Below are positions 62,491 through 64,000 of a stretch of 64,000 nucleotides of DNA, piece after piece. The notes below the pieces were generated by a model, which did no database searches, was not told where the DNA came from, and saw only the letters and a list, made by a program, of their open reading frames with translations. Source of the stretch: an uncultured Pelagibacteraceae bacterium (lineage in GTDB: Bacteria; Pseudomonadota; Alphaproteobacteria; Pelagibacterales; Pelagibacteraceae); assembly GCA_902616675.1 (NCBI GenBank), contig CACMTV010000001.1, forward strand, positions 62,001 through 126,000, given 5' to 3'. The stretch's first letter is position 1. Each line of letters opens with the position of its first letter. Made by a program: the position numbers and the translations under genes.

Positions 62491-63594
62491 TTAGTATAGC
62501 AAAGCAATAATTGAGGCAATTATAGCCAGGCCTAAAGCAGATAAAACATATTTGTTTTTTGTAAAAATTCTTTTTAATTTTAGAGATGTGGGCTCTTTAT
62601 ACTCTAAACCAGTTTCTCCTTTGACAGATGATTTAGTAAAACCACCTTCTCTACCAATTTTAAGAAATTTATTTTTTCTGTGATCAAATATTTCCTCTGA
62701 ATTCATGCTTTCAAAAAAATTTAAATTTTCTAAAATGGTATTTTTTATACTATCAGCAATTTCATCATGATTTCTATGTGCTCCGCCTAAAGGTTCTGGA
62801 ATAATATCATCTATAACTCCAAGCTTAAGAAGGTCTTGAGCTGATAATTTCATTGCTTCAGCAGCTTCTAAAGATTTACCAGGATCTCTCCATAAAATTG
62901 AAGCACATCCCTCTGGAGATATGACTGAGTAAATTGAATTTTCTAACATTATTACTTTATTAGAAGAGGCAAGTGCAATTGCACCACCTGATCCGCCTTC
63001 GCCAATTATCACAGAAATATTTGGAACTCTAAGCGACATGCAACATTCAATAGAGTGTGCTATTGCGGAGGCCTGACCTCTCTGTTCTGCGCCTATTCCT
63101 GGATAAGCACCTGGTGTATCTATAAAAGTAATTATAGGAATTTTAAATCTGTCTGCTAGCTTCATTAATCTTATACATTTTCTGTAACCTTCCGGACTCA
63201 TCATGCCAAAATTTTTTTCTATTCTAGTATTTAAATCTTCTCCCTTTTCTTGACCAATTACTAAAACAGATTTGCTATCAATTAATCCAAAACCAGCGGT
63301 CACAGAATGATCATCACCAAAATATCTATCTCCTGCTAAAGGAGTAAAGTCTTTAAATATTTTTTTGATATAAAAACTTGCTCTTGGTCTATCCTCATGT
63401 CTTGCAACTTGAGTTTTTTGCCAACTATTTAAATTTGTATAAATATTTTTCAATTTTGTATTAATTTGATCCTGCGTTGATTTAATTTTATTTGTATCAA
63501 CCTCTGATATACTCTCGTTTCCAGGACTTTTTAGAAGTTCCATTTCATCTTCTAATGTTTTTATCTCTTTTTCAAATTCTAGATAGTTTTTCAT
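62491..63594 (-). CDS. accA: Acetyl-CoA carboxylase carboxyltransferase alpha subunit with C-terminal membrane helix
   Basis: AccA and AccD transfer the carboxyl group from biotin to acetyl-CoA, the entry to fatty-acid synthesis. Core marks are KIFKDFTPLAGDRYFGDD, DTPGAYPGIGAEQRGQ and GEGGSGGAIALA. The catalytic part ends near residue 315, as in E. coli (319 total). Here about 48 more residues follow, closing with YVLSALGLAIIASIIALLY (349-367), a clear hydrophobic helix. This could anchor the enzyme to the membrane. Its gene is divergent from glcB. Confidence 0.94.
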   Translation of the reverse strand: MKNYLEFEKEIKTLEDEMELLKSPGNESISEVDTNKIKSTQDQINTKLKNIYTNLNSWQKTQVARHEDRPRASFYIKKIFKDFTPLAGDRYFGDDHSVTAGFGLIDSKSVLVIGQEKGEDLNTRIEKNFGMMSPEGYRKCIRLMKLADRFKIPIITFIDTPGAYPGIGAEQRGQASAIAHSIECCMSLRVPNISVIIGEGGSGGAIALASSNKVIMLENSIYSVISPEGCASILWRDPGKSLEAAEAMKLSAQDLLKLGVIDDIIPEPLGGAHRNHDEIADSIKNTILENLNFFESMNSEEIFDHRKNKFLKIGREGGFTKSSVKGETGLEYKEPTSLKLKRIFTKNKYVLSALGLAIIASIIALLY

Positions 63595-63675
63595 ACTTAG
63601 GTTTTATAATAATTCGCTCTTTAATAGAATTAAAATAAGTCAACAAATTGTCAATAAACTGGGATCAATTATCAT

Positions 63676-63704
63676 TTGACTTTAAAGTTTTACTAAGAGA
63701 AAAT
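63676..63704 (+). promoter_or_regulatory. Predicted promoter of the riboswitch-glcB transcript
   Basis: TTGACT (63676-63681), 17 bases, then GAAAAT (63699-63704), which matches 4 of 6 positions of the -10 consensus. Transcription would start around 63711, just before the first aptamer. Confidence 0.5.
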
Positions 63705-63713
63705 ATTAAAAAA

Positions 63714-63869
63714 TACGGGAGAGACTACTTTAATGTAGCGCCGAAGGAGCAACCACCCCGGAAACTCTCAGGCAAAAGGACCGTGCAAATACAATTCTGG
63801 AAAGAGACACGTTCTCACCGAAGGAGTAACTCTCTCAGGTACCAATACAGATGGGGTGAGATTGGTGCT
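63714..63869 (+). promoter_or_regulatory. Tandem glycine riboswitch controlling glcB
   Basis: Two glycine aptamers in series. Aptamer 1 runs about 63714-63785 (P1 ACGG with CCGT; conserved GCGCCGAAGGAGCAA and CTCTCAGGCAAAAGGACC). Aptamer 2 runs about 63796-63851 (P1 TCTG with CAGA; CACCGAAGGAGTAA and CTCTCAGGTACCAATAC). The downstream gene is malate synthase, starting at 63872, not a glycine cleavage gene. Two competing pairings are visible. UCUCACC of aptamer 2 (63813-63819) can pair with GGUGAGA (63855-63861), which includes the Shine-Dalgarno-like GGTGAG. Also 63838-63846 can pair with 63861-63869 next to the start codon. Confidence 0.95.
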
Positions 63870-63871
63870 AT

Positions 63872-64000
63872 ATGAAACTTATTAGTAAAAACGAACTTAA
63901 AATTAACCAAACTTTATTTAATTTTATTAATGAAGAGGTGCTACCTGGCACAGACATTGTACAAGATGATTTCTGGAGTAAATTTGCAAATGTAGTGCAC
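63872..64000 (+). CDS. glcB: Malate synthase G, N-terminal part (3' end outside window)
   Basis: Malate synthase condenses glyoxylate with acetyl-CoA to malate. Only 43 residues are visible: MKLISKNELKINQ, then LFNFINEEVLPGTDIVQDDF and WSKFANVVH. The FI-EVLPGT-----FW pattern followed by a VH is the N-terminus of the long G isoform. The glycine riboswitch just upstream fits a role in turning glycine-derived glyoxylate into malate. GcvT is excluded because its N-terminus is quite different. Confidence 0.88.
   Translation, partial: MKLISKNELKINQTLFNFINEEVLPGTDIVQDDFWSKFANVVH

Follow-up and report, generated by a model that had tools for sequence, protein, structure and literature searches.

What does a tandem glycine riboswitch do in front of a malate synthase gene, and how firmly does it belong to the bacteria that carry it? 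The glcB riboswitch is the standard example of SAR11 tying its central carbon flow to the supply of glycine. Few cell types in the sea are as abundant as SAR11, and in writing the glcB riboswitch is treated as a SAR11 trait. The locus described here comes from a genome of 902,962 bases that is 72% complete, and it was analysed in a stretch of 64,000 nucleotides (the window, G000:C1:62001-126000). The genus of this genome (g1) and Pelagibacter (g6) fall in one family.

Several features of this system have been described earlier. In metagenomes, glcB was reported to rank second in frequency among the targets of glycine riboswitches, mostly in Pelagibacter (Kazanov, 2007; PMC2211319). In HTCC1062, a riboswitch was located in the intergenic region 498458-498706 between glcB (SAR11_0510) and accA (SAR11_0511), and the gcvT intergenic region spans 649763-649953 (Meyer, 2009; PMC2704228). 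The riboswitches of our genome G076, taken as HTCC1062, lie inside these regions (498528-498615 and 649787-649876). Tripp (2009), as cited in PMC5069720, reported that glycine regulates carbon partitioning, and the title of that paper calls the SAR11 switch glycine-activated. Glyoxylate has been hypothesized to be converted to malate when glycine is adequate (PMC13198564; likewise PMC5069720). The link between the riboswitch and malate synthase, which the original prediction gave as known from SAR11, is therefore real and already published (PMC2211319; PMC2704228; PMC5069720), and the window adds a member in a genus other than Pelagibacter. In the literature found, malate synthase is reported as a target only in SAR11 or in metagenome fragments mostly assigned there (PMC2211319; PMC5069720), and among the matches listed from 389 alphaproteobacterial genomes no riboswitch stood beside glcB outside SAR11. 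The exclusivity of the glcB riboswitch to SAR11 is supported, not proven.

A Tandem Glycine Riboswitch Upstream of a Complete glcB Gene

The features of the locus, in window coordinates, are as follows.

62491-63594, minus strand: accA, acetyl-CoA carboxylase carboxyltransferase subunit alpha (PRK05724, 435.9 bits)
63676-63704, plus strand: promoter-like site, TTGACT and GAAAAT spaced by 17 nt, just 5' of the riboswitch (L005 1677-1705)
63706-63793, plus strand: glycine riboswitch aptamer 1 (RF00504, 69.6 bits)
63787-63860, plus strand: glycine riboswitch aptamer 2 (RF00504, 44.1 bits)
63796-63799, plus strand: 5' strand of the aptamer-2 P1 core, TCTG, assigned from sequence as the partner of CAGA at 63848-63851
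63839-63846, plus strand: predicted hairpin 5' arm, GTACCAAT, inside the 3' part of aptamer 2
63861-63868, plus strand: predicted hairpin 3' arm, ATTGGTGC, 4-11 nt before the glcB ATG
63872-64000, plus strand: first 129 nt of glcB, malate synthase G; the gene runs on to C1:128037

Aptamer 1 was matched to the Rfam Glycine model by cmscan of the 64-kb window (E-value 1.9e-12). Aptamer 2 is absent from that output owing to a 7-nt overlap between the matches, and it was recovered with the same model in a search of the genome (C1:125787-125860). Both scores exceed the gathering cut-off of 32 bits, so that the covariance search bears out the tandem glycine riboswitch proposed from the letters alone. 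The two matches abut with a short linker, and the TCTG of the aptamer-2 P1 core has an equivalent position in the leaders of gcvT and of Pelagibacter glcB. The riboswitch had been placed at 63714-63874 and does lie there, except that the tandem starts about 8 nt further upstream. An open reading frame with a TTG start (63648-63875) overlaps the riboswitch and was dismissed as accidental.

The downstream gene had been named malate synthase G from its N-terminus. When the sequence was extended beyond the window edge, the frame opened by the ATG at 63872, 11 nt past the end of the aptamer-2 match, proved to be a complete gene of 721 amino acids with no internal stop, and the protein scored above the cut-offs of both NCBIfam models for malate synthase G (PRK02999, 1195.6 bits against 565; TIGR01345, 1085 bits against 989). 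The upstream neighbour accA is divergently oriented. The closest GlcB matches, 91-93% identical, come from SAR11 single-cell genomes, in agreement with the SAR11 identity suggested earlier. The riboswitch-glcB link had also been offered as support for this identity; its presence does support it, but its absence would not count against it, since the riboswitch is missing from most of the window's genus.

Transcription would start just upstream of aptamer 1. Promoter-like sites of this kind numbered three against 2.0 expected, which is weak taken alone; by analogy, the position of the site agrees with the glcB transcription start that was mapped in HTCC7211-type cells, 162 nt ahead of the start codon (PMC5069720).

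A Predicted Hairpin Before the glcB Start Codon

In the glcB leaders of g1, a predicted hairpin formed by GUACCAAU and AUUGGUGC covers the bases before the AUG. Its pairing holds in 98.2% of cells across 14 distinct g1 leaders, while slid controls reach 20-55%. The changes among these 14 leaders are one-sided (U-A/U-G, A-U/G-U), with no two-sided covariation, and a shuffle control (430/500) gave no support beyond conservation. The case for the hairpin is thus built on conservation, the slid controls and the contrast with gcvT. Free-energy folding takes no account of ligand or tertiary structure; in it, the hairpin is part of the minimum-energy fold predicted for the ligand-free window leader, and the bases from about -4 to -10 before glcB are mostly paired in the ligand-free ensemble of the window leader and of the congeners tested. 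No terminator-like site was found in the leader region, which favours control of translation.

The joining strand of aptamer 2 makes up the 5' arm of the hairpin, and the loop holds CAGA, the 3' side of aptamer-2 P1. Since arm and loop are made of aptamer-2 bases, folding of aptamer 2 and formation of the hairpin should exclude each other. Without glycine, the 3' part of aptamer 2 would pair with the bases before the start codon and hide the ribosome-binding region. Glycine, if bound by this RNA, would fold aptamer 2 (P1 UCUG/CAGA and the 3' joining strand) and so take up the 5' arm of the hairpin. Given the mutual exclusion, glycine is predicted to free the ribosome-binding region, that is, to act as a translational ON switch. 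Malate synthase would then be translated, and glyoxylate would be turned into malate when glycine is plentiful. The ON sign is in line with the description of the switch as glycine-activated in the literature. That glycine would raise the use of glyoxylate, as suggested earlier, is the hypothesis already in print, and it fits the hairpin predicted in the window leader. We consider it probable that the window holds the known SAR11 tandem glycine riboswitch of the glcB leader, in which glycine turns translation on by releasing the hairpin.

Comparison With the gcvT Riboswitch and With Pelagibacter

The riboswitch had been described as standing before malate synthase and not before the glycine cleavage genes. 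The glcB copy is real, but gcvT keeps its own riboswitch in the same genome: a second tandem (C4:6066-6222, minus strand; aptamers of 68.8 and 46 bits) precedes gcvT-gcvH-gcvP. The glcB riboswitch is an addition to the gcvT riboswitch, not a replacement. A glycine riboswitch of some kind is present in 27 g1 genomes; 26 of them carry one ahead of gcvT, and for the 27th the downstream gene is unreadable. Far more genomes keep the gcvT riboswitch than keep that of glcB. The two riboswitches of the window genome are alike in class, in tandem arrangement and in a near-identical aptamer-1 core, and have ACCGAAGGAGUAA and CUCUCAGGU in common in aptamer 2. The gcvT riboswitch differs in that it controls the glycine cleavage operon and in that its own P1 extension takes in the start codon. 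Relative to RF00504 in general, which is found with gcvT or glycine transporters, the window riboswitch is alike in the sequence and structure of both aptamers and differs in its target gene, malate synthase.

The P1 extension, a feature that comes from the present comparison and is not a published defining one, is a helix between the start-codon region and the strand adjoining aptamer-2 P1 on its 5' side, seen in Pelagibacter glcB leaders and in the gcvT leaders of the genera examined. Examples are CATATTAAC/GTTAATATG in Pelagibacter gcvT, GTAATAAC/GTTATTAT in g1 gcvT and AAATAAAC/GTTTATTT in g11, and where genera differ, the changes compensate each other. Of the 11 positions, 7-10 are paired in most leaders of Pelagibacter glcB and of gcvT, and in some g9 genomes the helix stops short of the AUG. 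Throughout the gcvT leaders L002, L007-L032 and L215-L254, the start codon lies in or beside this helix.

The HTCC1062 glcB riboswitch resembles that of the window in its tandem aptamers directly before glcB, the divergent accA, a similar leader length and a second tandem riboswitch before gcvT. In HTCC1062-type leaders, however, a helix of their own (CAUA-A-CAC with GUG-C-UAUG) extends aptamer-2 P1 over the start codon. In the g1 glcB leaders, such pairing over the start codon amounts at most to short, interrupted runs, and the hairpin described above is present instead. Aptamer 2 also differs, with ACCGAAGGAGUAA...CUCAGGUACCAAUACAGAUGGGG in the window against GCCGAUGGAGCAAAACUCUCAGGCAAAAAUACAGAUGGGG in the HTCC1062 type.

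Patchy Distribution and Loss by Deletion

The comparison took in more than 100 glcB leaders. By motif, the glcB switch was present at 18 of the nearest 80 named glcB loci. It was found in 6/31 g1 genomes (5/30 fetched by glcB position, plus the window) and in 32/57 Pelagibacter leaders, the latter not being a frequency since known riboswitch leaders were fetched first and the draw is biased. In three other genera it was seen in none of 13 leaders. On the GlcB tree, its presence needs at least nine changes. Family f2 belongs to the same order; the 24 f2 genomes G037-G060 all lacked a glycine riboswitch, and among the f2 genomes in the matches listed, G037 and G038 gave no GlcB match at 1e-50.

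Some g1 genomes carry deletion scars, in which the promoter region (CATTT-ACTTTAAA) jumps to the tail of aptamer 2 just before the ATG. This tail reads ACCAATACAGATGG, or ACCAACATAGATAGGGTA...GATTGG, and the lost stretch measures about 145 nt. The scar is clearest in L046, L118 (G232) and L119 (G014), relatives of the window genome; Rfam found no glycine aptamer in L046, L119 or L120. Of the intact form and the scar, the intact form is the ancestral one, since CAGATGGGG belongs to aptamer 2 and occurs in gcvT riboswitches too. Since the scars occur in close relatives, loss explains much of the patchiness of the glcB switch.

In other genomes of g1 nothing but a short leader is present, ending GTAAAGATCGG...ATG. 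Most of the g1 genomes without the riboswitch (L122-L143, L049-L114) have in common the last 25 nt before glcB, TATTATA...ATGTAAAGATCGG...ATG. The short leader may be what is left of the riboswitch tail after more trimming, or else a start region that arose anew.

A separate case was seen in a Pelagibacter near HTCC1062 (L175 584-661, G082:C1), where the tandem is collapsed to one hybrid aptamer of 64 nt before glcB (55.5 bits). The hybrid runs from the 5' half of aptamer 1 into the 3' half of aptamer 2, with the shared GCCGAAGGAGCAA as the junction. An assembly collapse is a possible origin of this hybrid.

Alternative Readings of the glcB Leader

The reading most directly opposed to an ON switch keeps the same riboswitch and reverses its sign: glycine-bound aptamer 2 would stabilise a structure at the start codon and lower the translation of GlcB. 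It draws on the P1-adjacent strand of Pelagibacter glcB leaders and of the gcvT leaders compared: this strand pairs with the start region, often including the AUG, so that P1 would close the start site there. The g1 genus is without this extension on glcB and its hairpin uses aptamer-2 bases instead, and the SAR11 literature speaks of a glycine-activated switch, at least in the title of Tripp (2009) as cited in PMC5069720. For the window we regard the opposite sign as unlikely. The Pelagibacter-type platform itself, read equally simply, would tend to OFF, which sits uneasily with the literature. As the start-region pairing of Pelagibacter glcB and of gcvT reads simply as OFF, the sign is not transferable between lineages.

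A riboswitch might also be decaying and non-functional, kept merely because the deletion seen in its relatives has not yet happened. Most g1 genomes have indeed lost the glcB switch, and the scars lie in relatives of the window genome. Yet both aptamer cores are intact, with scores like those of the gcvT copy, and species with glcB 91-93% identical to that of the window keep near-identical cores while the linkers vary, which leaves decay very improbable. An error at the root of the analysis, either a chance RNA match or a mis-assigned malate synthase gene, is scarcely credible: no points in its favour were found, and it is met by the E-value of aptamer 1 across 64 kb, by the full-length equivalog match to malate synthase G and by 18 other named SAR11 genome records with the same riboswitch-glcB arrangement. 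Glycine-activated release of the hairpin is the reading that we prefer.

Origin and Physiological Context

In a riboswitch tree of 146 columns, the glcB riboswitches of g1 form one group and those of g6 form one group. The tree does not itself join the two, yet it does not reject a single group of all glcB riboswitches either (p-AU 0.25). An aptamer-2 motif, ACCGAAGGAGTAA...CTCAGGT, is common to g1 glcB and to g1 and g9 gcvT, and this sequence likeness would be expected if the g1 line had copied a gcvT leader, and also under gene conversion or retention.

The serABC genes and prototrophy occur in subclade IIIa, and the full set is missing in subclade I isolates (PMC10030771). Full-length SerA above the cut-off was found only in g5, g7, g8, g11 and one f2 genome, and the genera of all 12 genomes with full-length serA showed no glcB switch in the sample examined. 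Every glcB switch seen here falls in a genus lacking full-length SerA, a pattern that agrees with the auxotrophy link made by Tripp (2009), as far as that paper is cited, and that is confounded by phylogeny. A correlation between switch loss and serA is not claimed as an effect, since the serA-positive genomes fall in few genera. In the window genome (assembly 72% complete), no full-length serA or serC was matched, which is in line with a glycine/serine auxotrophy tied to the switch.

In the literature searched, with most subscription journals (including Tripp, 2009) outside that search, we found no earlier report of the patchiness, the deletion scars or the differing expression platform, and these are the observations worth keeping. 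Tentatively, and with clearly less confidence than in the ON switch of the window, they may be taken together. SAR11 would then have two structurally different forms of the glcB switch, independent or rebuilt, possibly with opposite responses to glycine and lost many times by clean deletion, making the switch a changing ecotype trait. If this is true, glycine control of the glyoxylate branch would be a trait of ecotypes and not a fixed property of SAR11. It can now be asked in which SAR11 ecotypes glycine still governs the glyoxylate branch, and whether losing the switch goes with their serine and glycine metabolism.
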